From positions 1 through 57,625 of the forward strand of contig JAHOYZ010000026.1 of assembly GCA_019038695.1 (NCBI GenBank): DNA of 57,625 bases, written 5' to 3'. Below, piece by piece: positions 609 to 13,403 of this stretch. Origin of the DNA: Candidatus Zixiibacteriota bacterium (lineage in GTDB: Bacteria > Zixibacteria > MSB-5A5 > GN15 > FEB-12). Each line of letters opens with the position of its first letter. The first letter of the stretch is position 1. The notes under the pieces are model-generated. The model was not told the DNA's origin. It saw only the letters and a list, made by a program, of their open reading frames with translations, and did not search any database. Made by a program: the position numbers and the translations under genes.

Positions 609-682
609 GCTGGGGTAGCTCAGTTGGTTAGAGCGCCTGATTGTGGATCAGGAGGTCGGCAGTTCAACCCTGCCCCCCAGTA
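609..682 (+). tRNA. tRNA-His (anticodon GTG)
   Basis: The cloverleaf can be traced by eye. Acceptor stem is 609-615 with 675-681, D stem 618-621 with 631-634, anticodon stem 636-640 with 648-652 around loop TTGTGGA (anticodon GTG), and T stem 658-662 with 670-674 around TTCAACC. No CCA is encoded. Two things are odd for a bacterial tRNA-His. The base before the first pair is A608 rather than the usual G-1, and the discriminator is A682 rather than C73. The first pair is also a G-T wobble. The last 11 bases are the att core of the inserted islands, so the 3' end may be element-derived. Confidence 0.85.
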
Positions 683-2350
683 TGTCTTTAAGCGCAAATC
701 ACCCTTCTTTCCTACCGCAACCTCAAGCAGCCCACCGATTTTCGCGTTTGATGTGGCCCGCAAATACTTGACGCCGTCTATCATACTGGGTTCGAGTGTG
801 AAGTGTCCAACCAAGGCCATAAGTCTCGCCCGAGCGGTCGAGATATCTGTTTCCATCAGTTCCTTGAGGCGATCAAGCCAGCCATCGACCCATTTTTTGT
901 CAACCTTGAGCTTGTCATAATCATACTTGGAATTGAGAAGAGACTGCTGCCTGTCAATCTCGCTCCTGCGACTCTCAATATCCGTTAGACGGGACATCAA
1001 CATGTCCGAAGCTGTACCCTTCTCGATAGCTGAGATTATGTTTGCCGCCTTCTTCGAGAGTTCCTCTCGCTCCAGAACAATGGAGTCAGCATTCTCACGA
1101 AGATGCTTCAGCCTGGCTTTAAGCTTTCGATTAACCTTCTCCATAATCGCTGTTAGTACGGGCGGACTCAAAAGGTCATTCTGAATATCAGACAGAATCT
1201 TGTCTTCAATCTCAAGCATTCTCACCTTGAAGTTGTTGCTGCAGGCAGCCTGTCCCCGGTGGTTGTTCGTTCCGCACGCAAACAGCGGATTCGGGCGATC
1301 CCCCCCGGTAACAATCACATAACTGCCGCCGCATTCATGGCATCGCATCATACCTGAAAAAAGAAAACGTGAACGACGCCGGTGAGTGGGCTGTTTCGTC
1401 TTTCTCTTCCCGGCCGCGAGCTTTGTCTCCACAGCTTCCCAAGTAGCATCATCGATAATGGCTAATTCAGGCTGTGGATTAGCTGTCCATTCGCTTCGTG
1501 GCTTAGGCACACGTTTCCTTTGGCCGGTTGCCGGATTAGTGATCCAGCCGGTCTTATTGAACGTCCAGTCGCCTTTGTACTTCGCACTCTTTAGTATTGA
1601 GCGAACGGTGCCTGGAAGCCAGGACGGCTTCCCCTTACCGCGCTTGAGCTGACTCGCATTGTAAGGAGGAAGATAGCCCTTTTCATTTAGAAGATGTGTG
1701 ATTTCGCGGACACTCAGACCATCAACAAAGAGACCGTATAGTTCGCGAACAATACTCGCTTGGTCGTCGTCGATCAAAATACGAGTTCCCATCACCTTCG
1801 TTTGCCCGGTCTTTCTGTCAATAGCACCGGACGGGTCGAGCACCTTCTCATAGCTGTAGCCATAGAGACGCCCACCCGCATTGTATCCTCTGATGGCTTG
1901 GCCACGCATACCGCGAAGCGTCTTGTCCGCTATGTCGGCCCGGGTCTGATCGTCGAAAATGCTATTGAAGCCGACGCTTAGTCTCGCCTGTTTCTCCTTT
2001 GTGTCAATGCGCTGGGTCACGAAATATATCTGGACACCCCAGAACTGAAGCTGCTTAATAAGCCTGCTGGTCTCCCCCATATCACGAGACAGACGGCTCG
2101 TATCGTCTATTAGCACATACTCAAATGATCGCCGATCCTGGCTGGCAGCATCCAGTAGTTTGCTCAGTCCCACACGACCGAACACAGTCGCGCCAGATTT
2201 TTTTTCATCAACATACGTATGTTCATCCAGCACAACCCAGCCCTTCTTCTCTGCCAAATCACGGCAGTTCCGAACCTGATCGTCAATAGACGTGTCACGC
2301 TGAAGTTCGGAAGAATATCTTGCGTAGATGGCACACCGCATAGTATTCAT
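620..2350 (-). CDS. Large serine recombinase (site-specific integrase) whose C-terminus runs into tRNA-His
   Basis: This is the DNA integrase of island 1. The start at 2350 is chosen because an AGGAGG site precedes it and the protein then begins directly with the resolvase fold (CAIYARYSSE, catalytic Ser13). Next come a recombinase domain (about 170-300) and a recombinase zinc ribbon (CHECGGSYVIV to a second Cys pair in CGTNNHRGQAAC). A coiled coil follows (MEKVNRKLKARLKHLRENA region), then a conserved end GGLLEVAVGKKGDLRLKTYWGA. The last 20 residues are the antisense reading of the tRNA. The circular element would instead supply a different tail, found at the far end of the island at 10667-10737. 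Confidence 0.93.
   Translation of the reverse strand: MNTMRCAIYARYSSELQRDTSIDDQVRNCRDLAEKKGWVVLDEHTYVDEKKSGATVFGRVGLSKLLDAASQDRRSFEYVLIDDTSRLSRDMGETSRLIKQLQFWGVQIYFVTQRIDTKEKQARLSVGFNSIFDDQTRADIADKTLRGMRGQAIRGYNAGGRLYGYSYEKVLDPSGAIDRKTGQTKVMGTRILIDDDQASIVRELYGLFVDGLSVREITHLLNEKGYLPPYNASQLKRGKGKPSWLPGTVRSILKSAKYKGDWTFNKTGWITNPATGQRKRVPKPRSEWTANPQPELAIIDDATWEAVETKLAAGKRKTKQPTHRRRSRFLFSGMMRCHECGGSYVIVTGGDRPNPLFACGTNNHRGQAACSNNFKVRMLEIEDKILSDIQNDLLSPPVLTAIMEKVNRKLKARLKHLRENADSIVLEREELSKKAANIISAIEKGTASDMLMSRLTDIESRRSEIDRQQSLLNSKYDYDKLKVDKKWVDGWLDRLKELMETDISTARARLMALVGHFTLEPSMIDGVKYLRATSNAKIGGLLEVAVGKKGDLRLKTYWGAGLNCRPPDPQSGALTN
672..682 (+). repeat. att core copy 1 (left end of island 1, inside tRNA-His)
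   Basis: GCCCCCCAGTA is identical to 10740-10750 and 13340-13350. It is the last 11 bases of the tRNA. To its right the sequence becomes the 3' coding end of the serine recombinase. I read it as the left junction made by recombinase-driven integration. Confidence 0.75.
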
Positions 2351-2662
2351 ACTGTAGCAGACCTCCTGCTCGGAGTGCAAGATAAAACCAAGGTCTTGAG
2401 CATGGCCGAAGCATTCAGAGAGATTGGGGTTTGAGCGGGGCATACACAAGAAGTGCAGCCCCGCCACTGATTGAATAACTGCCTCAGATCAGGTGAGAGT
2501 GAGGATGCACTCTCTTCAAACCCAAAGATTGAACCAAAAACTGACACGACCACCTGCTTTAACCCATTTCTCAGTATGGCCTTATTCATAGGGGACACTG
2601 GTAGTTGGTGAATAGTCACTGGTCCCTCGTAAAGAGTAGGAAGTAATGAGGAATTCACCTTC

Positions 2663-3094
2663 TCAGTGCCCTCCAGTAATTGGCTCGATGAGCGTATCTA
2701 CAACTGAGTATCCCATGGATGGTGGATAGGGTTCGCCGTTTGGGAAGCATTTCTTCCTGTCTCGCACCAGCGCGCGAAAAGCCCTGTTCAAGAATACCTT
2801 GGGAGACCTTCTCTCATTTTTCTTGGGTCGTGCACCATTCGCGATTACCCATTGTTCACAATACTTGGTTCGGAATGACATAGTCCGAAGGTCGCCTGAG
2901 TCAGGAATCGGGCACATCAACTTGACCATTGTTCCCTCGTAATTCTCATCGTCAATCACTCTGAAATGAATGTACATACGTAATCCCGGTCCCCAGCCCG
3001 AAGGTCCCTTCTCGGCCTTACAGCCAACAAGCATGTACTCACCTGGCGGTATCCATTCGGGCAACTCCTTGGTTTGCTGTTCGTCACCAGCCAT
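2663..3094 (-). CDS. Hypothetical island protein, conserved phage/ICE type
   Basis: A 143-residue soluble protein reading ELPEWIPPGEYMLVGCKAEKGPSGWGPG near the start and SVVDTLIEPITG at the end. The pattern (PPGEY, K-WG-G, a beta-rich middle, a Lys/Arg-rich region RPKKNERRSPKVFLNRAFRALVRDRKK, then YSVVD) resembles short proteins I associate with mobile elements that also carry a DUF5659-like partner, which is present just upstream. No catalytic motif is visible. It is the last gene before the serine recombinase in a minus-strand run. Function is unknown; a DNA-binding role is only a guess from the basic segment. Confidence 0.6.
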   Translation of the reverse strand: MAGDEQQTKELPEWIPPGEYMLVGCKAEKGPSGWGPGLRMYIHFRVIDDENYEGTMVKLMCPIPDSGDLRTMSFRTKYCEQWVIANGARPKKNERRSPKVFLNRAFRALVRDRKKCFPNGEPYPPSMGYSVVDTLIEPITGGH

Positions 3095-3174
3095 TAGTGG
3101 ATGGCCATTCGATCGGATTCAATCCATCTCTATCCATTCTCAACTCTCCATCTTATCTCATTTGGTGTCCGCCC

Positions 3175-3441
3175 TCAGTTCCGTTTCGCTTCAAACACAG
3201 CCGCCTTCAAATTGGATAGCGTGTTGTTGTACGCCAGCGCAGACACTTGGCCTTGGCCACTGAAAAAGGCCGCAACCTGGTCTTGTGTCGGCTCAGGTGT
3301 CAAAGAAAAAACTACCTGCTGTCCACCATCGGGGCAGTACGCACGCTCAAGGATAGATACTTTGCTGGTGATTAGGTATGCTGCGAGATTGAGTTTGTCA
3401 GTCTCATAGACGCTTGATTGGACTGTCCTCGATTTTGTCAT
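3175..3441 (-). CDS. DUF5659-like small island protein
   Basis: An 88-residue protein preceded by a good GGAGG ribosome site six bases before the ATG at 3441. The sequence TDKLNLAAYLITSKVSILER, then QQVVFSLTPEP and a closing NTLSNLKAAVFEAK, fits the short one-domain proteins labelled DUF5659: an LAAYL helix, a middle beta strand, and an end helix with L-N-LK. The biochemical role of this family is not known to me. Its first codons overlap the end of a 55-codon frame at 3404-3571, suggesting translational coupling within the island operon. Confidence 0.6.
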   Translation of the reverse strand: MTKSRTVQSSVYETDKLNLAAYLITSKVSILERAYCPDGGQQVVFSLTPEPTQDQVAAFFSGQGQVSALAYNNTLSNLKAAVFEAKRN

Positions 3442-3571
3442 TCATATCCTCCGATTCTGTATCTCGTTCGATTTCCTTCAATCTCATCTCTACCATGGCA
3501 TCAGCCAGCACATCGATGAACCCGTTCCAGGCGGGGTCATCCGTTATCTTTCTTGAATCGACCTTTTCCAT
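3404..3571 (-). CDS. Small hypothetical ORF overlapping the DUF5659-like gene
   Basis: A 55-codon frame reads MEKVDSRKITDDPAWNGF, then a helix-like acidic/basic segment (LADAMVEMRLKEIERDTE), and stops inside the next gene after IKRL. Its end contains the ribosome site and start codon of the DUF5659-like gene, as in coupled phage genes. No clear ribosome site lies before its own ATG, and the frame is open about 15 more codons upstream (AFVIDKNQARAILPC), so the true start may be a non-ATG codon. Real coding is plausible, not proven. Confidence 0.4.
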   Translation of the reverse strand: MEKVDSRKITDDPAWNGFIDVLADAMVEMRLKEIERDTESEDMNDKIEDSPIKRL

Positions 3572-3678
3572 ACAAGGCAGTATCGCCCGTGCTTGATTCT
3601 TATCAATGACAAAGGCACATTTGGAGGACGCGGAATGGAGGACTTTGGGGGATTTTGGGGGACAGGCGGACGAGTCTG

Positions 3679-4488
3679 CTATTCGACCCTTGATTTGGCT
3701 ACATCAATGTCAAATCTGTAGCTGTTCGTGAACCGTTGGCCTTGATCGTTCTTCTGATTGTTGACGAGCTTGTTTAGCGGTGGATAGTGCTTGAACAAGT
3801 CCTTCATCGCCTTTTTCGGATTTTGTGGATCGACCTTCTTGAGCAGTTTCTTGCGATCTATGAACTTCTTTCCGCTCTTCCGAACTTCGATCATGTATGC
3901 AACTGCGGCAACAATGTGTGGCGGGTATTGCCTGCGCGGTTTCTCGCCGTCAAAGCTAATCTGGGCGAAGTCGCGATTGACGACAACAACCGACTTCTCC
4001 GGCGATTCTTTGGCTTCATCCGCGAGCGGAACTTCTGTTCGATCGGTATCATCAGGAGCCAACTCTTCCAGAATTATCGCTTCCAACATGAGACTGCAGC
4101 CTTTCAAATATGTAAATGCCTCATGGTATTCCCTGCTCGCTCTGTGGTGATCGAAGTTTTCGAAGTAGGCCAAGAACTGCTGCAACTCGGCCGTCGGCTT
4201 GTTTCGTCTTGGCTGGCTCCGATCGTCAGATAGATAGTATTCGATTGTAACAAACTGTAAGCCATCGCGTTCATTGATGATGCGCTGAAAATTCTGTATG
4301 GGGACGTCGTACCATTCGGCCAAGAACTCATTGACAGCCATTGGCAGATGGCGCGTGATCTTATAACGCCGCGCGTTCCTGTCGGGGCTAAATGCAGGGA
4401 TGTCACTTTCGGCAGTTAGGGCATCCTGGACGGATTGGTACAGTCGCTTAATCAGTGGCAGTTTCGATTTAGGGGATTTGTACGGCAT
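3679..4488 (-). CDS. Hypothetical island protein with basic termini
   Basis: About 270 residues from MPYKSPKSKLPLIKRLYQ. The start is uncertain: ATG codons at 4542 and 4563 are in frame but would overlap the upstream HTH gene by 53 or 74 bases, whereas 4488 begins right after its stop. The protein is hydrophilic. It has a basic N-terminus, a middle with acidic stretches (EELAPDDTDRTEVPLADEAKESPEK), and a Lys-rich C-terminal segment (KFIDRKKLLKKVDPQNPKKAMKDLFKHYPPLNKLV). I recognise no family. Its place directly behind an excisionase-like gene and a tyrosine recombinase would suit a replication or transfer accessory protein, but nothing in the sequence proves it. Confidence 0.65.
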   Translation of the reverse strand: MPYKSPKSKLPLIKRLYQSVQDALTAESDIPAFSPDRNARRYKITRHLPMAVNEFLAEWYDVPIQNFQRIINERDGLQFVTIEYYLSDDRSQPRRNKPTAELQQFLAYFENFDHHRASREYHEAFTYLKGCSLMLEAIILEELAPDDTDRTEVPLADEAKESPEKSVVVVNRDFAQISFDGEKPRRQYPPHIVAAVAYMIEVRKSGKKFIDRKKLLKKVDPQNPKKAMKDLFKHYPPLNKLVNNQKNDQGQRFTNSYRFDIDVAKSRVE

Positions 4489-4489
4489 C

Positions 4490-4720
4490 TTAACGGTCTC
4501 GCTTTCCGAAGCTCGACTTCTTTTTGATCTCTCTGATTTCATCTTTTCCCAAGCCCCGGACACGGCTTAGATAGTCCTCAACATCCGAACGTCGAAACCG
4601 CTTGGAGTTGCCTATGATATGAACGGGCAGCTCGCCGCGATCGACCATCCGATATATGGTGTACTGATTCAATTCCAGCAACGCGGCCAGTTCCTTGACT
4701 GTATAGAACTCCTTCTCCAT
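4490..4720 (-). CDS. Excisionase-type helix-turn-helix DNA-binding protein
   Basis: A 76-residue protein of the HTH_17 / MerR-like excisionase kind. FYTVKELAALLELNQYTIYRMVDRGELPVHIIGNSKRFRRSDVEDYLSRV is the canonical winged-helix pattern: recognition helix NQYTIYRMVDRG, wing IGNSKRF, closing helix DVEDYL. A basic tail (EIKKKSSFGKRDR) follows. Such proteins bend DNA at attachment sites and set the direction of recombination, or repress. It starts six bases after the tyrosine recombinase stop, so the two are almost surely co-transcribed and probably work together. Confidence 0.85.
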   Translation of the reverse strand: MEKEFYTVKELAALLELNQYTIYRMVDRGELPVHIIGNSKRFRRSDVEDYLSRVRGLGKDEIREIKKKSSFGKRDR

Positions 4721-4726
4721 TGTGCC

Positions 4727-5311
4727 TCACATATTCAAGATGGCATTGTCGATCTCTTCCTGCTTAAAGGACAGATACGACATGGTTGAATTGATATTCT
4801 TATGGCCTAATGCCCTTGCGACTTTGCCGATGTTTCCCCCGAGAGCATTGTACGCTCTATCAGCGAAAGTCTTCCTCATGGTATGGGTACCGAGCTTCCC
4901 GGTGAACTCGTTTGCCTCGTATGCATCATGCAAAATATGCCATGCGGAGGTGCCGGTGATCGGCCGGTTCTGGCCCTTACGACTTTGAAACAGAAAGGTG
5001 TCATCCTTGCTGTAGCCCAGATCATGGAGCTGTTCGATCCAGTCCGCCAGGGCGGCCTTAGCCTCCTGGTGCAGCGGGACACAGCGACCCTCAGTTTTCT
5101 TCTTCATGTTGCGACGCTCAACATAAACCCGATCGACCAGTTGGCCAGCGTGAACTACATCACGAAGCCGCAATGATAGAAGCTCGGCAACCCTGAAGCC
5201 AGTCTTCAGGCCCAGGATGAACAGCGCACGGTCACGAGCGGCATACTTGCCGGCAAATGACCTCTTGGCGATAGCCTCTTCTTCGATCGTTAGTGGTCGG
5301 CAGCCCTTCAT
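4727..5311 (-). CDS. Tyrosine recombinase, catalytic domain only
   Basis: From MKGCRPLTIEEE the product has about 194 residues and is nearly all catalytic domain of the phage-integrase family. The active-site set is complete: Arg40 in TGFRVAELL, H143xxR146 in HTMRKTF, His170 in ALGHKN, and Tyr179 in TMSYLSF. The usual N-terminal SAM-like core-binding domain (about 80-100 residues) is missing. This resembles short integrases of inverton or integron-like elements more than XerC/D. It heads a minus-strand operon with a good promoter at 5411-5439. Its presence in an island whose boundaries fit a serine recombinase suggests a second activity, such as inversion or resolution, rather than island integration. 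Confidence 0.88.
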   Translation of the reverse strand: MKGCRPLTIEEEAIAKRSFAGKYAARDRALFILGLKTGFRVAELLSLRLRDVVHAGQLVDRVYVERRNMKKKTEGRCVPLHQEAKAALADWIEQLHDLGYSKDDTFLFQSRKGQNRPITGTSAWHILHDAYEANEFTGKLGTHTMRKTFADRAYNALGGNIGKVARALGHKNINSTMSYLSFKQEEIDNAILNM

Positions 5312-5410
5312 GTGGGAAATCTCCAATCTATCTAATATGATCCAAATCCACTCTCTTCTGACCAAATCTACGGATCGAGGGCAGTTAAGTCAACAACTTT
5401 TTACTACTTT

Positions 5411-5439
5411 ATACTACATATTATGGCATATTGTGACAA
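5411..5439 (-). promoter_or_regulatory. Sigma-70-type promoter of the tyrosine recombinase operon
   Basis: On the minus strand TTGTCA (5439-5434) and TAGTAT (5416-5411) are 17 bases apart, about 100 bases before the recombinase start at 5311. The surrounding A+T-rich block has repeated TACTAC/TACTTT words that could also be protein-binding sites. Confidence 0.5.
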
Positions 5440-5523
5440 ATCGCAGCTTTTGGCGAAAGCTGTTATTCAAATCCATCCACCCCAGAGCTACCCCCAATTA
5501 GCCGTATTGACTATTTTTGATGT

Positions 5524-6102
5524 CTATTTGGACTTGGGTTTCTTGCGAACTTGTCTGACGGCCCACACAATGGTTCGAAGGAACAGAAAGAACGGATAGA
5601 GCGAGAATACCGTTACCTTTTGCAACCAATCGGCTCGCATTACACGATCATTGTAGGCTTGGTGGTTGTCGTATTGCTCGATCCAACGCCGTAATCCGAG
5701 CACTCGAAGACTATCTCGTTGACGAGTGAGTACGGTGTCGGGAAGAGTAAAGTAAGCGGGATTCTCTGACAGTAGCAGTTTGAGGCTATCGAACGCATTC
5801 CGCTCACTATCGTTAAGGCATTTGCCAAGTTCACCTGAAACGCTCAACCTCCCCTGCATCATTTCTTCGAGATCAATATCCACGAGCAACGAAGCAGTGC
5901 TACCAATCGACTCCTCACCACCAACAGCAAGGTGCTTCTCAAAAACTCCACGGTTTCTCTCAATTGGACTTGGCATCCGGATGGGTTGTTCAACCACAGG
6001 TCCTCTTGCCATATAGAAGACCGCTGTCGCCAACAGGAAACTGCCGACCGCGAACCCCAACAGATATAGCCATTCTCTGGCGACCACTCTCTTCCAGCTC
6101 AT
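5524..6102 (-). CDS. Hypothetical membrane protein with two transmembrane segments
   Basis: Counting from MSWKRVV (6102), the product has about 192 residues. It has an N-terminal membrane helix (YLLGFAVGSFLLATAVFYMA) and a second near the C-terminus (VTVFSLYPFFLFLRTIVWAV), then a basic tail (RQVRKKPKSK). The loop between them is about 120 residues and rather acidic, so by the positive-inside rule both ends are cytoplasmic and the loop is outside. I do not recognise the family. It lies upstream of the tyrosine recombinase promoter as a separate unit of the island. Confidence 0.6.
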   Translation of the reverse strand: MSWKRVVAREWLYLLGFAVGSFLLATAVFYMARGPVVEQPIRMPSPIERNRGVFEKHLAVGGEESIGSTASLLVDIDLEEMMQGRLSVSGELGKCLNDSERNAFDSLKLLLSENPAYFTLPDTVLTRQRDSLRVLGLRRWIEQYDNHQAYNDRVMRADWLQKVTVFSLYPFFLFLRTIVWAVRQVRKKPKSK

Positions 6103-6242
6103 ACTGATAGCATAATGGATGTTGACCACCACAAGCAAGCGTTTCTCGGGCGTTCTGAGTGGGGCTATGCGCTTGTGGCCCCTAAACCCGGTGGAAGCCG
6201 CTCAGTAGGCAGCTCACGCGCTTAGAATGCGTCTGTGTGGCA

Positions 6243-6271
6243 TTGACAAGCCGGAATGCAAAGGGTATAGT
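6243..6271 (+). promoter_or_regulatory. Sigma-70-type promoter for the secreted protein at 6300
   Basis: A perfect TTGACA (6243-6248) and TATAGT (6266-6271) lie 17 bases apart. A short leader then carries AGGAG before the ATG at 6300. Confidence 0.7.
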
Positions 6272-6299
6272 TGAGAAACATCTAACACAGGAGAAAGAT

Positions 6300-6653
6300 A
6301 TGAAACGGGTAACAATTGTATTCTTGATGTTGGTGCTATGTGCTATGTCGGCACATGGCGACACCTCAGATAACCCCGATGGCAGAACTTGTATTCTTGC
6401 CGGTCTTACTTGTACAAATTGGGATTGGCGTTTAACAACGATACAGAACACTGAAATACAGTCACTAAACGATACGCGCGTTACGCCCATGATCGGTGCA
6501 ATTGTACCCGTCAGTAATTACTTAACGATAATAACAGAAGTACAATACTATAATGGCGAGCATGAACCTTGGGGGAGTACACCCGATCTGACCGTGGAAG
6601 TTACAGAAATAAACTTCTCTATATGTTTGAAAATGTATATAACCGGTCAGTGA
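6300..6653 (+). CDS. Small secreted hypothetical protein
   Basis: The start at 6300 is set by the AGGAG site and by the signal peptide that follows (MKRVTIVFLMLVLCAMSAHG, likely cut after AHG). The mature protein has about 97 residues, with two cysteines near its start (CILAGLTC) that could form a disulfide and one near its end. It has a beta-rich pattern (YLTIITEVQYYNG, DLTVEVTEINFSICLKMYITG). I know no family for it. It is the only plus-strand coding gene I accept in island 1 and has its own strong promoter, so it is probably expressed in the integrated state. Confidence 0.6.
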   Translation: MKRVTIVFLMLVLCAMSAHGDTSDNPDGRTCILAGLTCTNWDWRLTTIQNTEIQSLNDTRVTPMIGAIVPVSNYLTIITEVQYYNGEHEPWGSTPDLTVEVTEINFSICLKMYITGQ

Positions 6654-6680
6654 TATAATGCACCCCCGCTTCCCGGATCA

Positions 6681-6806
6681 GACAAATTGTCGCCAGATAT
6701 GGAAGCCGGAGTAACCGATCATCTGTGGAGTATTGAGGACATTGTGAAGCTACTCGAAGCCAAAGAGGCCCTCAAACAGGAAGGCGAGACCACATTAAGT
6801 TATTAA
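6681..6806 (+). pseudogene. Remnant of a transposase C-terminus
   Basis: The frame reading DKLSPDMEAGVTDHLWSIED and on to a TAA at 6804 matches the end typical of many insertion-sequence transposases (P-M-xAGVTDHLWSIEDIVxLLEA). No start, catalytic core or terminal repeat is present, so this is only a 40-codon leftover. The exact IS family cannot be told from this piece. It shows that an insertion sequence once sat next to the ncRNA and DUF3800 locus. Confidence 0.5.
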
Positions 6807-6823
6807 AGAACAGATAAAAGTAA

Positions 6824-6851
6824 TTGACAAACCGAATCTATCCGATATAAT
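6824..6851 (+). promoter_or_regulatory. Consensus sigma-70 promoter of the ncRNA candidate
   Basis: TTGACA (6824-6829) and TATAAT (6846-6851) are both perfect and 16 bases apart. No protein-coding frame follows. Transcription would begin near 6858, at the first base of a 7-bp closing stem. Confidence 0.8.
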
Positions 6852-6858
6852 AGTAATA

Positions 6859-6946
6859 GAAGTGCCGTAAATCCCTTGGAGGTGTGTCGCAGATGGCATA
6901 AGCTGCATTTGATGCAGTCGCCCTTCGGGTTGCACTTCTTTCTTTA
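6859..6946 (+). ncRNA. Candidate structured small RNA next to a DUF3800 gene
   Basis: Directly after a perfect promoter, an RNA of about 80 nt can be drawn. A closing stem GAAGTGC (6859-6865) pairs with GCACTTC (6932-6938). Inside are a hairpin CTGCAT-TTG-ATGCAG (6903-6917) and a short CCC-TTC-GGG hairpin (6921-6929). A U-rich tail (TTTCTTTA) after the closing stem could end transcription. The 3' end touches the 3' end of the convergent DUF3800 gene. Rfam holds several unrelated RNA families found beside DUF3800 genes (the DUF3800 motifs). That link is from memory, and I cannot say which, if any, this matches. Function is unknown. Confidence 0.6.
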
Positions 6947-7690
6947 TCCCCCTTGAAACCAAGCTTCTCCATGTTTGATTTTGGGAGCCAAGATGTCCAA
7001 GAACCGACTATCCCCATATTCGAACTTCCGAAATACAGACCAAGAGACGAAGTCTGCTATCCTGATACAGTAATTGGCCGCAGAGTCGCATGGATACATT
7101 TTGAACGCAACACTCTCAAACTTGGTCTTGGTGTATACGATCGTTGTCACATACGACTGGAAGTTCAATTTGGGGCGTATCTCCTTGTTTCTTTCATCAT
7201 AATAGAGATCAATATCCGCGTAGTCCCCCAAGTTAAGCTCGATAAGCTTCCCTGATAGGAAGTTGTACAGAACAAACGGCGGGGCTGTCTTGAGGTTGCG
7301 ATAGACATTCTGCTTCTTAATAGTTAGATAGTCAATTTCCATATCTGCCCTCGACAATTTGTCGAGCAGCAACATTGTCTGATCCTGGGGTCGATCCTTG
7401 TGTCTATATGAGCTGGGTATGTCTCTGTTCTTACTGGCCCCAAACAGAAGACTCGCCTTGATCTCGGTATCTTTGGGCCACCCGGCAGATATTTGGGCAG
7501 CACAGAACCTTTTGCAGATAGCCCGGATCTGATTCGGACCAGCAACCTTAACTAACGCGATATTGAATGTGGAAGAACTCCTGGGGCTTGTGAAGCCTGT
7601 CGAGTCCCCGCTTTCGTCCATGTAGAATCGCATATTGGGGGAATATAGCGATCCACTGGTGCACAAGTAAACAAATATCATTTTAGGCAT
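6944..7690 (-). CDS. DUF3800 domain protein
   Basis: A 248-residue protein with the DUF3800 hallmarks: the N-terminal FYMDESGDSTGF motif (an RNase H-like-fold first strand with acidic residues), a middle with conserved DLYYDERNKE, and a C-terminal RIADFVSWSVFRKFEYGD. The fold and conserved acidic residues suggest a nuclease or nucleic-acid-binding role, but this family is not well characterised. Many DUF3800 proteins start with MRFYMDE (here 7633), so the true start may lie 19 codons inside the frame; no clear ribosome site separates the options. The gene converges with the ncRNA candidate. Confidence 0.8.
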   Translation of the reverse strand: MPKMIFVYLCTSGSLYSPNMRFYMDESGDSTGFTSPRSSSTFNIALVKVAGPNQIRAICKRFCAAQISAGWPKDTEIKASLLFGASKNRDIPSSYRHKDRPQDQTMLLLDKLSRADMEIDYLTIKKQNVYRNLKTAPPFVLYNFLSGKLIELNLGDYADIDLYYDERNKEIRPKLNFQSYVTTIVYTKTKFESVAFKMYPCDSAANYCIRIADFVSWSVFRKFEYGDSRFLDILAPKIKHGEAWFQGG

Positions 7691-7781
7691 TGAATTTCAA
7701 ACTGACCCACTACCGCGTTCTGGTACGCATTGACAGCACTACTCCAACCTGTTATCGTCCACCATGAGATATTGGTGGTGG

Positions 7782-7970
7782 CTATTTGGTCGGCAGAACT
7801 GGTGGGTTGTTTTGGCTGTGGCGATTATTGCCCTGATTGCCGCTTGGTGGCTCAGGTGAGCGCCGACGCATCGGGGTCGTCTGGACAAGCGGATACTCTG
7901 ACTTGCACAAGGGGCAGAACCACACCTTGCTTTCCAGAACACAATCGAACCCGCAGTTTTTGCACAGCAT
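7782..7970 (-). CDS. Tiny zinc-ribbon protein 2
   Basis: A 62-residue frame begins LCKNCGFDCVLESKVWFCPLC: two Cys pairs (CxxC and CxxC, plus an extra Cys) in the spacing of a zinc ribbon. It ends in a Pro/Asn/Gln-rich tail without predicted fold. Its ATG overlaps the TGA of the upstream zinc-ribbon gene (TGATG at 7968-7972), a strong sign of coupled translation. Family unknown; such ribbons usually bind nucleic acid or a partner protein. The Pro-rich tail is less certain because an antisense hydrophobic frame covers it. Confidence 0.5.
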   Translation of the reverse strand: MLCKNCGFDCVLESKVWFCPLCKSEYPLVQTTPMRRRSPEPPSGNQGNNRHSQNNPPVLPTK

Positions 7971-8071
7971 CAGCTCTTACTCCACTTAGTACCGCACTTG
8001 ACGCACACCCAATAGCCCGCGTCATCGGAACCGACCAAACTCCCACCGCATTTACATTTCTTGACTGCCAT
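7970..8071 (-). CDS. Tiny zinc-ribbon protein 1 (33 residues)
   Basis: The frame is short enough to be missed by most gene finders. It starts MAVKKCKCGGSLVGSDDAG and ends YWVCVKCGTKWSKS, with a CxC pair and a CxxC pair about 18 residues apart in zinc-ribbon layout. Its ATG lies inside the last codons of the M41 peptidase gene (frames overlap 8052-8071), and its stop overlaps the next ribbon start. The three genes thus form an unbroken coupled string, which argues that this one is translated. Role unknown; an adaptor or RNA/DNA-binding ribbon is possible. Confidence 0.55.
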   Translation of the reverse strand: MAVKKCKCGGSLVGSDDAGYWVCVKCGTKWSKS

Positions 8072-8822
8072 TTTCTTCAACTCCCAGAATGATTTTGTCT
8101 ATTTCTTCTTTGGATAATTCGTTCCGCTCAAATAGAGCGTCGGCCAGGCGTACAAGTTGGTCCTGGTTCTGTTCGAGGATCTCCCCCGCTTGACGCTCAG
8201 CACGCTCACAGAAAAAGCGGACTTCTTTATCCACCTTTTCTTGAATATCCGGGCGAGTGATAAGCGTCACAGTGTCATAGGCGACACAACCCAACTTTTC
8301 GGACATTCCATATTTGGACACCATAGCATTAGCCAGAGTTGTCGCGGTGAGAATGTCATCTGCACATCCGGAGTCAGCCCCGTCGGTCGATTTGGCGTTC
8401 GAAACGCTGGCAAGATATATCTGCAAATGTGCAAGGCAACTTTCTTCCCTCAAGTCCGACGCATAGTCTGACGGGTTGGCCATGACCCTACCCCAGGACG
8501 AACCGTCTGGGATTATCGTTGCACCGGCGTGCCCTATTTTCAAGGCATTCGCAACAATCAAATGTGAGGCTTCGTGTAGAGCTGTCCTTCGCCTCTGATA
8601 TTCAGGGATACTATTCTGCTTCTCAAGAAGCCGTTGCCGGTCCAGTTCTTTGCTCCCCCTGTCGGCAACGTCAGCCCTTGCAAACGACGCCTCATTGTCG
8701 GCTATTGTAGCGGCCAGTTGCATATCATATTCAGCTAACGCCTCCGGAGAGAGCGTTGTCCTGTGTGTCTCAATAGCAGTACGCTCTGCCTCCGGCAGCG
8801 CCGAAAGGAAGTTATCAGTCAT
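8052..8822 (-). CDS. Stand-alone M41 (FtsH-type) metallopeptidase
   Basis: A 256-residue protein with the zinc-binding HEASH motif (residues 83-87 in RRRTALHEASHLIVANAL). A downstream ADDI segment (about 154-157) corresponds to the acidic third zinc ligand of FtsH (TGAxND). The rest follows the FtsH protease domain closely: ATTLANAMVSKYGMSEKLG, then a helical end RAERQAGEILEQNQDQLVRLADALFERNELSKEEID. Unlike FtsH (about 600-700 residues), it has no membrane segments and no AAA ATPase domain. Residues 1-75 are an acidic helical region of unknown role. It would need another unfolding partner or cleave small or unfolded targets. It is coupled to two zinc-ribbon genes. Confidence 0.8.
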   Translation of the reverse strand: MTDNFLSALPEAERTAIETHRTTLSPEALAEYDMQLAATIADNEASFARADVADRGSKELDRQRLLEKQNSIPEYQRRRTALHEASHLIVANALKIGHAGATIIPDGSSWGRVMANPSDYASDLREESCLAHLQIYLASVSNAKSTDGADSGCADDILTATTLANAMVSKYGMSEKLGCVAYDTVTLITRPDIQEKVDKEVRFFCERAERQAGEILEQNQDQLVRLADALFERNELSKEEIDKIILGVEENGSQEM

Positions 8823-8933
8823 TGCGAATACCTACAATTCTGTTATAGGCCAGGATGAACTTTTCGACGGTGAGCCGCTGTAAGTGTCTTGCACTCCAAC
8901 ATACTATGTCTGGGCGGTCCATTGTTGGCGCTT

Positions 8934-9242
8934 TCATTGGTACTCCGTGAGCGGTGACTGTATGACGTCCAGCTCCATATCAGTCAAGTCGAACTCGGCC
9001 AGGTCGAATGCCAGCCGGTGCGAATACTGAAGGGCTAACGCCAGGAAACCCCGCCGGCAAGTCTGAAGGTCACCCCATATTGAATCTTTGTCGTCGGTCC
9101 AACAGTGAAAAGCATGAAAATTGCCGACTGTTCTATCGAAATCGTCTTTGGTAATTATGAACCCCCGAAAGAAGGGGTCACCATCGTCTGCCGTCATTGT
9201 AGAGAGCTTATCCAGTCTACGGGACAGTATGTTTTTTGGCAT
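8934..9242 (-). CDS. Hypothetical island protein (about 102 residues)
   Basis: The start at 9242 is preferred because GGAGG lies six bases before it. The protein starts MPKNILSRRLDKLSTMTADD and continues with FHAFHCWTDDKDSIWGDLQTCRRGFLALALQYSHRLAFDLAEFDLTDMELD, an acidic soluble protein with no motif known to me. The gene overlaps the end of the upstream Cys/His-rich gene by 26 bases, so the two are co-transcribed and probably coupled. It precedes the M41 peptidase gene by about 110 bases. Confidence 0.5.
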   Translation of the reverse strand: MPKNILSRRLDKLSTMTADDGDPFFRGFIITKDDFDRTVGNFHAFHCWTDDKDSIWGDLQTCRRGFLALALQYSHRLAFDLAEFDLTDMELDVIQSPLTEYQ

Positions 9243-9600
9243 ATAATTCCTCCAGTGCCTCAATGCGTTCTTCGAGTGTGCCGTTGTCTATGGACTTCAG
9301 GATGATGTTGCTCATATATGCTACGCAGTTTGCTACTTTGGTGTCCAGCTCCCCCGTTTTCACAGCCTGAATGCAGTCTGATAACAGCGCGGTAATATCT
9401 TGGGCTGTCTCGATCTTGAAGGGTTCGCCATCAGCCAGAACTTTCGGCGGTGGCTTCGTTGGAGTGTTCCCACCCTTCGCACTGGCCGCTTTCCGCTTCG
9501 ATACGTCCGGACTATGCCAGAAGCAAACAGTTCCCCCACGTGTAGCGTTGCCGTTGCATCGTTCACCTGAAATTTTAATTGCTGTGCATCGTCGGTTCAT
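9217..9600 (-). CDS. Small Cys/His-rich phage-like protein
   Basis: A 127-residue protein opening with RRCTAIKISGERCNGNATRGG and then VCFWHSPD: a C-x10-C-x9-C-x3-H zinc-binding pattern common at the start of small phage and island proteins, some of which neighbour terminase genes. A basic linker (KRKAASAKGG) and a helical C-terminus (QDITALLSDCIQAVKTGELDTKVANCVAYMSNIILKSI) follow. DNA binding is plausible from the zinc knot and basic linker, but no terminase or packaging gene is present, so I leave the role open. Confidence 0.6.
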   Translation of the reverse strand: MNRRCTAIKISGERCNGNATRGGTVCFWHSPDVSKRKAASAKGGNTPTKPPPKVLADGEPFKIETAQDITALLSDCIQAVKTGELDTKVANCVAYMSNIILKSIDNGTLEERIEALEELYAKKHTVP

Positions 9601-9626
9601 TTTGTAATCCCCCGTAGTCCCGCTTA

Positions 9627-9941
9627 CTACGCGCTCGCCCTGGCTTCGGCTATAGCTTCGGCACTCAAGTAGCCCTGACCGTCGTCGCTATTGTCGCCTG
9701 GCTGGTAGCCGTTGTTCAACTCAAGTCGCGAAAGAAAGTCGGTAACATCCGCTTTCCTGAATGAGCCGTCACCCTGGGCAATGATAGAACCGCGCTGAAG
9801 GTGAAACTTGAACATCTTGGGTGACAAGTCACAGAGTTCTGCCGCTTGTGAGCCGTTCAACCTGTCGGGAGCTGATTCGAGAGCTACCCTGAAGGGTTCG
9901 CGTCGGGCTTCCCTGGCCGCGTCCTTGTGGGCCTGGCCCAA
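9627..9941 (-). CDS. Helix-turn-helix protein with coiled-coil N-terminus (start unclear)
   Basis: The C-terminal half has an excisionase-like HTH (RLNGSQAAELCDLSPKMFKF, then GSFRKADVTDFLSRL). The only recognised start is TTG at 9941. However, the frame stays open for 45 more codons to a TAA at 10077-10079. Those codons look coding, with a charged heptad-like pattern (TEELHKQYLQSLKETERL, then LVLSQCADREAAEK), but contain no ATG, GTG or TTG. Either an unusual start (an ATA lies behind a purine-rich GGGCAGG) is used, or the 5' end is damaged. It probably acts as an island regulator. Confidence 0.55.
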   Translation of the reverse strand: MGQAHKDAAREARREPFRVALESAPDRLNGSQAAELCDLSPKMFKFHLQRGSIIAQGDGSFRKADVTDFLSRLELNNGYQPGDNSDDGQGYLSAEAIAEARASA

Positions 9942-10194
9942 TTTCTCAGCCGCTTCCCGATCTGCGCACTGACTTAAAACGAGTTCCGACCGAAGCCTCT
10001 CAGTCTCTTTGAGAGACTGAAGGTACTGTTTGTGAAGTTCTTCTGTCTTAGTTATCCGTAACCTGCCCTTTCCGTTTTAATCACCACCGCCCAGCGTTCA
10101 TACAAAAGAACGGGGAAACACGCACTAACGACGCCGAGCGGTGGGTTCGTTTTCATCTATGTATCAAAGACCTCTGCCTATCCACTGTGTTGTA

Positions 10195-10371
10195 TCATCC
10201 GGCATTGATTTTCACTCGATTTAGATATTCGGTGACATCCTCCGGAAGAAACCGGAGTGACTGGCTGCACATTCGCGCTGGCAGCTCGCCGGACTTCACC
10301 AATTTCCGCACGGTCTGTTTGCTGAGTAGAAGTTGGTCGGCTACCCCGTCGATGGTTAAAAGGTCTGTCAT
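10195..10371 (-). CDS. Excisionase-like HTH protein (58 residues)
   Basis: A short gene preceded by AGGAG at 10379-10383 with seven bases to the ATG. The protein, MTDLLTIDGVADQLLLSKQT followed by VRKLVKSGELPA, LRFLPEDVTEYLNRV, is a complete HTH_17 excisionase fold: recognition helix SKQTVRKLVKSG, wing, then closing helix DVTEYLNRV. It is the gene closest to the right end of island 1, a usual place for a recombination directionality factor. Its ribosome site lies in an RNA leader with two competing structures (10379-10440), so translation may be controlled. Confidence 0.7.
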   Translation of the reverse strand: MTDLLTIDGVADQLLLSKQTVRKLVKSGELPARMCSQSLRFLPEDVTEYLNRVKINAG

Positions 10372-10670
10372 AATTCATCTCCTAATCGTATTAGGTTTCT
10401 TGTCCTGTGACAAAATGCCCCTTTGTCAAGGGGAAACCTATCACCACATGAAAATGTGTAATAAGATGTGATAATTCCGCGTCCTATAACTGACTCAAGT
10501 TTATCGAATCGCAGGATTTTGTGAATCTTGCGATTCAACTCGGCCGTGAGGGGCTTTTCTCTGGTTGACCCTGTCCGAGAGACTGCTTCGAGCGGCGCTT
10601 CCGAATTCCGATCAGGTTTGAGGCCCATAGAAGCGATCTGAGCGTCGATCTCTGATTGATGCTGTGTCAT
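10368..10670 (-). CDS. Hypothetical ORF at the right end of island 1
   Basis: The first 57 residues look like protein (MTQHQSEIDAQIASMGLKPD, then EAPLEAVSRTGSTREKPLTAELNRKIHKILRFDKLESV). The rest reads through the palindromic leader and looks random. GGAGG lies four bases before the ATG. The ATG overlaps the TGA of the serine recombinase tail encoded at 10667-10737 (ATGA). In the circular form of island 1 this frame would therefore directly follow, and be coupled to, the recombinase. Function unknown. Confidence 0.4.
   Translation of the reverse strand: MTQHQSEIDAQIASMGLKPDRNSEAPLEAVSRTGSTREKPLTAELNRKIHKILRFDKLESVIGRGIITSYYTFSCGDRFPLDKGAFCHRTRNLIRLGDEL
10379..10440 (-). promoter_or_regulatory. 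Candidate RNA switch in the leader of the excisionase-like gene
   Basis: On the minus strand an outer stem TAGGTTT/AAACCTA (10440-10434 with 10398-10392) encloses two perfect hairpins: CCCCTT-GACA-AAGGGG (10433-10418) and TTGTC-ACAG-GACAA (10413-10400). Together they form a three-way junction. The same CCTA bases can instead form CCTAAT-ACG-ATTAGG (10395-10390 with 10386-10381), which covers the AGGAG ribosome site. The two folds exclude each other, as in translational riboswitches. No known riboswitch class is recognised. A DNA operator is the alternative reading. Confidence 0.45.
10439..10473. other. Nested palindromic sequence
   Basis: TATCAC (10439-10444) pairs with GTGATA (10468-10473). 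Inside, CACAT-GAAA-ATGTG (10445-10458) forms a hairpin. It adjoins the leader switch and may be an operator or recombination-protein site near the right end of island 1. Confidence 0.4.
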
Positions 10671-10737
10671 GCGGCCTCCAGCATGACAACAACGAGGGGG
10701 CCGGATAGTCCAATGGAATCGTCGCTTAAGCTCATAC

Positions 10738-10949
10738 TGGCCCCCCAGTATTTCCTTAAGTGCAAATCGCCCTTCTTCCCCATCGCAACCTCAAGCAGCC
10801 CACCGATTTTCGCGTTTGATGTGGCCCGCAAATACTTTACACCATCTATCATACTGGTTTCAAGAGTGAAATGTCCGACTAGAGTCATGAGCTTCGCCTT
10901 GGCGGTAGCAATATCAGTTTCCATCAGTTCTTTAAGGCGATCAAGCCAG
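10738..10949 (-). pseudogene. Truncated serine recombinase 3' end (island 2 layer)
   Basis: The frame from WLDRLKELMETDIATAKAKL down to KGDLHLRKYWGA is a close match to the last 70 codons of the intact recombinase, with a few changes (AVGKKGDLR to AMGKKGDLH). Upstream homology stops sharply at 10949, where the sequence turns to the kinase promoter region, so the rest of the gene has been deleted. Beyond the core the frame continues into the tail that belongs to island 1. It is a relic of an older, related element. Confidence 0.8.
10740..10750 (+). repeat. att core copy 2 (junction of islands 1 and 2)
   Basis: An identical GCCCCCCAGTA. To its left is the predicted native 3' tail of the island 1 recombinase; to its right is the truncated older recombinase. 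This is what the right junction of island 1, inserted into the left end of an earlier island, should look like. Confidence 0.7.
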
Positions 10950-11061
10950 GATAACCCCAACCAGATGGAATCATAAATGGTTATATGAACCTTAGATTAC
11001 TTCTTCACGTATAGAATACTAGTTCAGTTAATCGATTTCAGTTCAAGTTATGAGGTCATAT

Positions 11062-13254
11062 ATGGAAAACGATTGCAACATTCCGAATGCAGACGATACC
11101 CAAACATATAAGCTGATAGCTCCTGGAACCAAAGTCTCAAACTACACCGTGGCCGAACGGTTAGGGATAGGTGGTATAGGCGAAGTTTATCTGGCTCATG
11201 ATGTTGAATTGGATCGATCAGTAGCCATTAAATTTCTTAAATTCACTGAGATGCCGGACCCGAAAGTGGTGGAGAGATTTAAGTCGGAGGCTTACACAGC
11301 CGCAAAACTCAACCATCCAAATATCGTCACTGTCTATGAGATAGGAGACTTTGATGATAGACCATACGTTGTGCAGGAGTTTATAGACGGTGAACCATTG
11401 AACATGCGCGTCTATCCCTCTGGTCTTTCTGTACCAGCCTTCCTGTCACTGGCGATACAAATATGTGACGGTTTGAGTGAAGCTCATGCAAACCGTATTC
11501 TTCACGGAGATTTAAAACCGTCCAATATACTTATTGACCATAATGGTCGAGTCAAGATAATAGACCTTGGAATATCGGAAGACGAGCATACTTCACAGTT
11601 CACTGATGATCAGACGATTACAGGCACGACAGCTTATATGCCGCCCGAACAGCTCAAAGGTTTACGAGTTGACGAGCGATCGGATCTATTTTCCCTTGGT
11701 GTCGTACTCTATGAGGTGCTTACATTGAAGCACCCATTTAGACAACACACCGATAATCTTACTATGAATGCTATTATGCAAGGTACAGTCACGTCGATTT
11801 CCAAAGTACGGTCTGGAGTTCCTGCTGAATTGGAGAAAATCATAATGACTATGATTGATCCCAGCCCCGAAAATAGACCGGCTGCCATCGTACAAATTCG
11901 CTCCCAGTTAATAGCCATTATGAGGGATATACAGACAAATACTGGACATAAGGATGTGTCTTCCGTTTCACGCCAAACATCTATTGCTGTTTTGCCTTTC
12001 ATGAATATTGGAGGAGGAACGCACTGGGAACACTTCTGTCAGGGCATCTCCGAAGAGATATTGGTGTCGTTAGCATCCGTAGAAGGACTTCGGGTAACAG
12101 ATCGGGGTAAATCGTTTTCATTAAAAAACCCGTCCGAAGATATTTGTACATTTGGGCGAGATCTCAATGTTGAAATAGTCCTGAAAGGAAGTGTTCGAAT
12201 AAACCAGGGACGGCTAATAGTTTCGGTGCAACTCGTTGAAACCCAATCCGGATATCAGATATGGTCCAAGGAATATAATCGAATGCTCGGTGATGTATTT
12301 GATATTCAGGACGAAATAGCCGAGAGCGTCGTACATTCCCTGAAAATTGTATTGGGAAGTAACGCTCGCAAGCCTGTCGATCAGGCACCTACTAATAACG
12401 TCATGGCATACGATTATTTCCTTCGTGGCCGCCAGTATTTTCATCAACGACGTAAGAAGAGCCTACAATTTGCAGTCAGCATGCTGGAAAGTGCAGTAGA
12501 TATCGATCCCAATTTTGCATATGGTTTTGCTCTACTGGCTCATTGTTGTTCTCTCCTTGTTCATTTTTACGGAGACCCAAGGAAGTCAAATTTGGATCGA
12601 GCTGATAAAGCCAGCCAGGACGCTCTGAGATTGGCACCTGCTCTGGGAGACGCACATGCAGCTCGTGGTTTTGTACTTTGGTTACTCGGAGATCACGAGA
12701 ATTCTGATCTTGCATTTAAACAGGCTCGTCAACTTTCTCCAAAGAATCCTGAAGCGTACTATCTAAATGCTCGTTCTCATTTTCAACGTGGGTTGTTCGC
12801 TTCTGCGGCAAAACTCTTTGAGAAGGGATGTCGGGTCAGAGACGACCATGAGGCAAGGTATTTTCTTGCCCAAACTTATGCTTCCATGGGAAGGGAAGCA
12901 GAAGCAAGAACTGCGTACGTAAATGCTCTGCACATCATAGAAAGACATGTCGAATTGCATCCAGATGATGCACGAGCAATCACATTCGGTGCAGTAGCTT
13001 ATTATCGGTTAGATAAGCCAGTCAGTGGTTTAGAATGGGCACAGAGAGCTCTCGATGCCGATCCTACCGACGCTGGTATTCAATACAACGTTGCATGCTT
13101 ATTTGCGCTGGAAGGGGATCAGGCTCGGGCTATTAGCTGCCTAAAAGAAGCAGTCAAAGCTGGATTTGCCCACCGTGATTGGGTTATGAATGATCCTGAT
13201 CTTAGATCTTTAAGAAGTAATCCGGAATTTATGTCTCTGAATTGGCGGGAATGA
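11062..13254 (+). CDS. Soluble Ser/Thr protein kinase with TolB-like and TPR domains
   Basis: The ATG at 11062 is chosen over 11050 because GAGGT sits five bases before it. The kinase domain (about residues 24-290) has the glycine loop GIGGIGEVYLA, VAIKFLK with the ATP-binding Lys, and a catalytic loop HGDLKPSN in place of the usual HRDxKxxN. The metal motif is DLG rather than DFG, followed by MPPEQ. A TolB/FlgO-like segment (SIAVLPFMNIGGG, then ISEEILVSLASVEGLRVTDRGK) and about six TPR-like repeats follow. No membrane helix joins the halves, unlike the paralogue at 21740. The catalytic Asp is kept, so activity is likely. It is the only full gene of island 2. Confidence 0.88.
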   Translation: MENDCNIPNADDTQTYKLIAPGTKVSNYTVAERLGIGGIGEVYLAHDVELDRSVAIKFLKFTEMPDPKVVERFKSEAYTAAKLNHPNIVTVYEIGDFDDRPYVVQEFIDGEPLNMRVYPSGLSVPAFLSLAIQICDGLSEAHANRILHGDLKPSNILIDHNGRVKIIDLGISEDEHTSQFTDDQTITGTTAYMPPEQLKGLRVDERSDLFSLGVVLYEVLTLKHPFRQHTDNLTMNAIMQGTVTSISKVRSGVPAELEKIIMTMIDPSPENRPAAIVQIRSQLIAIMRDIQTNTGHKDVSSVSRQTSIAVLPFMNIGGGTHWEHFCQGISEEILVSLASVEGLRVTDRGKSFSLKNPSEDICTFGRDLNVEIVLKGSVRINQGRLIVSVQLVETQSGYQIWSKEYNRMLGDVFDIQDEIAESVVHSLKIVLGSNARKPVDQAPTNNVMAYDYFLRGRQYFHQRRKKSLQFAVSMLESAVDIDPNFAYGFALLAHCCSLLVHFYGDPRKSNLDRADKASQDALRLAPALGDAHAARGFVLWLLGDHENSDLAFKQARQLSPKNPEAYYLNARSHFQRGLFASAAKLFEKGCRVRDDHEARYFLAQTYASMGREAEARTAYVNALHIIERHVELHPDDARAITFGAVAYYRLDKPVSGLEWAQRALDADPTDAGIQYNVACLFALEGDQARAISCLKEAVKAGFAHRDWVMNDPDLRSLRSNPEFMSLNWRE

Positions 13255-13339
13255 CTTCTGAGATTCACTATATGCTGCCCTCAACCGCGTTTGTAAACGG
13301 TGTCAGAAGTTCATCCAGAACGGCACTTAGCTGATACCT

Positions 13340-13350
13340 GCCCCCCAGTA
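13340..13350 (+). repeat. att core copy 3 (right end of island 2)
   Basis: A third GCCCCCCAGTA; here CCT precedes it as in the tRNA, so 14 bases match copy 1. Recombinase 3' sequence continues to its right, so this too is a junction with an even older element. Confidence 0.7.
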
Positions 13351-13403
13351 AGTCATTAAGTGGCAAACGCCCTTCTTCCCCATCGCAACCTCAAGCAGCC
13401 CAC
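13351..13403 (-). pseudogene. Oldest serine recombinase remnant
   Basis: About 53 bases after core copy 3 match the recombinase 3' end at 10751-10803 (shared CGCCCTTCTTCCCCATCGCA and CTCAAGCAGCCCAC). The match ends at 13403. Nothing recognisable lies between here and the gene at 13621, a stretch of about 217 bases. Confidence 0.65.

Follow-up and report, generated by a model that had tools for sequence, protein, structure and literature searches.

The analysed window, a stretch of 57,625 nt from Candidatus Zixiibacteriota, contains a tRNA-His gene next to an island of roughly 10 kb, E1, which is probably mobilised by a large serine recombinase with the attP in the 3' end of its own gene (Table 1). 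The E1 recombinase scores above the cut-off for PF00239, PF07508 and PF13408 in Pfam, i.e. the Resolvase, Recombinase and zinc ribbon domains of large serine recombinases, and matches the phrog_95 integrase in PHROG (1.4e-85); all three domains are located before the att core. The island also encodes a 212-aa protein with a tyrosine recombinase catalytic domain (PF00589; 4727-5365), apparently without the N-terminal arm-binding domain, and a 256-aa ORF with a Peptidase_M41 (FtsH-type protease) domain (8052-8822), in which an AAA module would not fit. Immediately 5' of the tRNA-His lies a small glycine-rich, membrane-like ORF with repeated GLIGG (188-475). The tRNA-His and its counterparts in the relatives have an apparent G1-U72 pair and A73 and no encoded G-1:C73, which is unusual among bacterial tRNA-His.

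Table 1. Features of the tRNA-His locus and of the ends of island E1.
Feature	Position	Strand	Remark
tRNA-His (GTG), target gene	609-682	+	ARAGORN; 3' end is the attachment site
Large serine recombinase of E1	620-2467	-	likely start ATG at 2350
attL core GCCCCCCAGTAT	672-683		12-nt identity with 10740-10751
attP half-site within recombinase codons CCAGTATGTCTTTAAGCG	677-694		15/18 inverted repeat with 10723-10740
Excisionase-like HTH protein MTDLLTIDGVADQLLLSKQTVRKLVKSGELPAR...	10195-10371	-	start overlaps the ORF100 stop (ATGA)
ORF100, 100 aa	10368-10670	-	start overlaps the stop of the tail (ATGA); GGAGG just upstream
Predicted free-form C-terminal tail ASMSLSDDSIGLSGPLVVVMLEAA and stop	10667-10740	-	same frame as the homologous E2 remnant
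Other attP half-site CGCTTAAGCTCATACTGG	10723-10740		codes for the start of the circular-form tail
attR core GCCCCCCAGTAT	10740-10751		12-nt identity with 672-683
E2, 3' fragment of a second related recombinase	10741-10960	-	78% amino acid, 84% DNA identity
E3, core and shorter fragment of a third recombinase	13329-13403	-	sequence similarity to the E1 recombinase

In agreement with the original prediction, the att core lies inside the recombinase coding sequence, and in the integrated state the frame passes through it, crosses the 3' end of the tRNA-His and terminates within the tRNA. The protein ends ...KTYWG AGLNCRPPDPQSGALTN, its last 17 residues being antisense tRNA-His; the 20 codons given earlier for this run include the YWG itself. 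The core proposed at that time, TACTGGGGGGC, is the reverse complement of GCCCCCCAGTAT and one base short of the 12-nt identical block. An open frame of 24 codons is by itself unremarkable as a chance event. The features that are not expected by chance are the attP dyad, the two ATGA overlaps in a row and, most of all, the finding of the same arrangement in relatives.

The predicted circular attP of E1 forms a dyad of two 18-nt arms around a CCCC centre, which was not matched in any of 500 shuffles (0/500). With the gap set to at least 10, a scan gave 9/12 and so underestimated this symmetry, while a small gap recovered the full 15/18; the attP dyads of E2 and of the same-phylum homologue G013 were not significant in the small-gap scan. 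An attP that is pseudo-palindromic, has half-sites resembling each other and shares a short core is typical of large serine recombinases, for example that of A118 (PMC3783163), and E1, with its dyad and 12-nt core, fits this pattern.

At the right end of the island, the frame at 10667-10960 on the minus strand reads ...KYWG ASMSLSDDSIGLSGPLVVVMLEAA and its TGA overlaps the ATG of the next ORF, confirming the predicted ATGA junction. This ORF, ORF100, which has no Pfam or PHROG match, would lie directly downstream of the E1 recombinase in the circle, followed by the HTH gene, whose product matches the excisionases phrog_66 (1.6e-5) and phrog_2907 (9e-5). That circularisation reunites the recombinase with an alternative tail and a downstream ORF is borne out by the geometry of E1, and relatives show both states. 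The recombinase sequence upstream of this tail is not E1's own, a point missed in the original prediction: comparison of 10729-10949 with 661-881 (84% identical DNA; 78% amino acid identity) identifies it as a truncated second recombinase, E2. Its predicted circular tail ends YWGAGIS before the stop; what separates this short tail (AGIS) from the E1 tail is an indel in the half-site, and coming from a dead remnant it is little informative. E2 appears to be left over from an earlier integration into the site used by E1, and the locus is best described as several related elements stacked in tandem on a single tRNA-His, of which E1 adjoins the tRNA and is the sole element with an intact recombinase. 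Judging by the E2 and E3 remnants, this tRNA-His has been the target of three or more successive integrations. Between the two remnants there is only a kinase-like ORF (11050-13254).

The same layout was found in many related recombinases. Tracing them required an alignment-based scan, as a genome-contig scan with the single recombinase protein returned no relative. The frame enters an antisense tRNA at 114 of the 168 distinct ends of related recombinases, in 106 cases tRNA-Met, where the stop usually follows 13 codons into the gene, near the anticodon. Homologues within the same phylum enter antisense tRNA-His (G033 and G037 in the frame used by E1, G039 in another), tRNA-Met (G084, G092, G036, G013, G102), tRNA-Glu (G054, G070), tRNA-Asn (G111) and tRNA-Leu (G127), and scans of genomes and viral contigs extended the layout to Acidobacteria, Alpha- and Deltaproteobacteria and Opitutaceae. 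In eleven of the serine recombinases (L208, L231, L254, L256, L288, L300, L303, L306, L326, L327, L390), no more than 45-52 nt from the 3' half of tRNA-Met follow before other sequence begins, possibly reflecting a second, tyrosine-type element inserted in the anticodon loop of this tRNA.

To read the other end of the exchange, free forms are informative. In the phage records of Rhizobium phage RR1-A and Mae-JY30 the frame crosses the core into a tail that is not tRNA-derived, and free viral contigs and attR-joined proviruses likewise show an alternative tail past the core. The comparison of C-termini between closely related recombinases in both states, suggested with the original prediction, displays the exchange directly: the enzymes of the free contig L221 and the integrated L228 share 95% identity across 535 aa, and their tails diverge exactly after the core. 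From the core onward, L221 matches the attR side of the L228 provirus (88% over 110 nt), i.e. the free contig carries the junction predicted from the provirus. In G013, a 24-nt att repeat marks attR and the exchanged tails are GLEPRTHGL and GLEPKVILEIPIEFNIMSDGKRRKQTG. Free homologues that end at or before YWG were not encountered; only L106, L104 and E2 stop within a few codons of the core and are almost without a tail. Inverted half-sites flank the core in JY30, L210 and L203 (12/12 each) and in L264 (11/12), and were not significant in about half of the free forms tested. Terminal repeats, looked for as a check of circularity, were not found in L159, L161, L104, L106, L035, L110 and L154, so the assignment of these seven as free rests on the tRNA-free sequence past their attP. 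Searches for attR in 36 proviruses gave no convincing site in about two thirds, and attR-joined tails come solely from the 12 in which the core run reached 12 or more and was oriented as expected. Together, the sequences make a solid case that the recombinase has two C-termini, set by the circular or the integrated template.

Whether the free tail is more than a by-product of this geometry is a separate question. If the adjacency of int and attP is simply kept, the conserved protein would stop short of the core by 10-15 residues, and the frame would enter whatever follows; both tails would be inert and the residues near the core would reflect constraint on att DNA. We regard this as unlikely, with an appreciable chance of being right. 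In its favour, the conservation of the recombinase protein declines ahead of the core, three classes of frame lead into the tRNA (G039 differing from E1), the half-sites encode the first tail residues, and several free tails (L104, L106, E2) are very short. The free tails are mostly unalignable across the family; the expectation of conserved tails holds in part, for one subclade with a conserved extension and for an enrichment of C-terminal Ala.

This enrichment stands against two inert tails. Of the 42 free tails, 20 have Ala as the last residue and 10 have AA, as compared with 1/114 and 0/114 integrated tails, with 11.8% Ala and 1.7% AA ends among 346 ORFs of the same contigs, and with 14% and 3.1% among random reading-frame ends. 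The Ala often follows a hydrophobic stretch (FLIVA, FMFVA, FVFAA, FVLAA, VIAA, VVLA), and the enrichment lies past the half-site, where codons and stops differ between tails. It was first noticed among the initial 20 free tails (12 with Ala); in the 22 collected later it was weaker and in the same direction, with 8 Ala (P=0.003) and 4 AA (P=0.0005), binomial values that assume an independence violated by related phages. More than half of the free tails are without a final Ala, including G013, E2 and the entire subclade with the long extension. The latter comprises seven tails (L228, L241, L246, L259, L361 and L397, attR-joined; L221, observed free) that share a conserved free-form extension of ~50 residues containing GTWQIALxRAIxKY, with dN well below dS where dS was measurable, e.g. 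0.19/1.69, many pairs being saturated. Between the L323 and L261 tails, five codon differences are synonymous and two nonsynonymous, which also speaks against an inert by-product. The Ala enrichment and the constrained extension thus argue against free tails being pure junk.

A constrained tail could alternatively act by direct modulation by way of dimer, coiled-coil or RDF contacts; the enzyme made from the circle would then favour integration and that made from the integrated template excision. The state of the template would match the reaction required, and the long conserved extension of the one subclade would suit such a contact, while most tails are short and variable; we consider this improbable. 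Still less probable is an operon switch in which the peptide is immaterial and integration merely uncouples the recombinase from ORF100 and the excisionase-like gene: the two ATGA overlaps with Shine-Dalgarno sequences and the excisionase-like HTH gene of E1 agree with it, but a conserved coupled ORF downstream of the recombinases of free relatives was looked for and not found, so that such coupling is not a feature of the whole family.

The reading that we favour is a function of the free tail itself. Transcription from the circular template would yield the free-form tail, a presumably functional, state-specific element, and the integrated template the C-terminus antisense to the tRNA. The short, hydrophobic and often Ala-Ala-ended tail may render the enzyme made from the circle short-lived through C-terminal proteolysis, as ssrA tags do, and integration would exchange it for an inert end encoded by the tRNA. 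The E1 circle would also place the recombinase upstream of ORF100 and the excisionase-like gene, an operon that integration would cut. A regulatory role of the free tail, perhaps as a degron, is plausible. For E1 considered alone, the free tail is one single sequence, ending EAA, in contrast to the MAA of the host tmRNA tag. The case for a degron is weak in this island, since its LEAA codons (CTG GAG GCC GCA TGA) also provide ORF100 with its Shine-Dalgarno sequence and start, and this overlap alone could account for them. That E1 has a self-exchanging C-terminus whose free tail is functional, most likely as a proteolysis signal, appears to us evenly balanced between right and wrong. The generalisation that widespread tRNA-targeting serine integrases exist as two state-set isoforms, one with a degron or regulatory free tail and one with a tRNA-encoded prophage end, forming a self-written switch, is more tentative and falls slightly short of that balance.

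If true, a tail written by recombination would be a simple way to limit a serine integrase after infection, or to hold it ready in the prophage. Integrases mined from prophages would then be cloned with a tRNA-derived tail and not in the form that performs integration. Furthermore, att sites overlooked due to a short core could be sought within the recombinase gene, for instance in the Paracoccus prophages with serine recombinases, whose integration sites were not identified (PMC6536676).

The removal of a repressor tail by integration and self-targeting att sites in archaeal tyrosine integrases are already known; for large serine integrases with their own C-terminus exchanged, no description was found in the open-access literature. 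Islander describes tRNA-targeting genomic islands with tyrosine integrases (PMC4383910); the restoration of the tRNA 3' end by the island is shared with E1, where, in contrast, the frame of a serine recombinase crosses the junction. In ICEKp1, the int promoter switches with the state, and expression differs between the integrated and excised forms through the junction (PMC13023037); as in E1, the junction makes the difference between the two states, but in ICEKp1 it acts at the promoter and not at the protein C-terminus. The archaeal 'suicidal' integrases of SSV1, pTN3 and pT26-2 likewise have the attP within the integrase gene, with a tRNA as the target of SSV1, and self-disrupting recombinases have been called exclusively archaeal (PMC8371274). 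Integration breaks these tyrosine recombinases up into int(N) and int(C), leaving them inactive, whereas in the present family the C-terminal tail alone changes. In integration-dependent immunity (Broussard 2013; mycobacteriophages BPs and Brujita), the attP lies in the repressor gene, the attB in a tRNA, and integration removes an ssrA-like degron; C-terminal degrons have been described there for phage repressors and integrases (PMC9262239). An attP within a coding sequence, a tRNA attB and a C-terminal tail stripped by integration are common to both systems. There, however, the repressor is altered and the tyrosine integrase retains its own tag, while in E1 the attP sits in the recombinase gene, and it is the large serine recombinase itself that would lose a putative degron.
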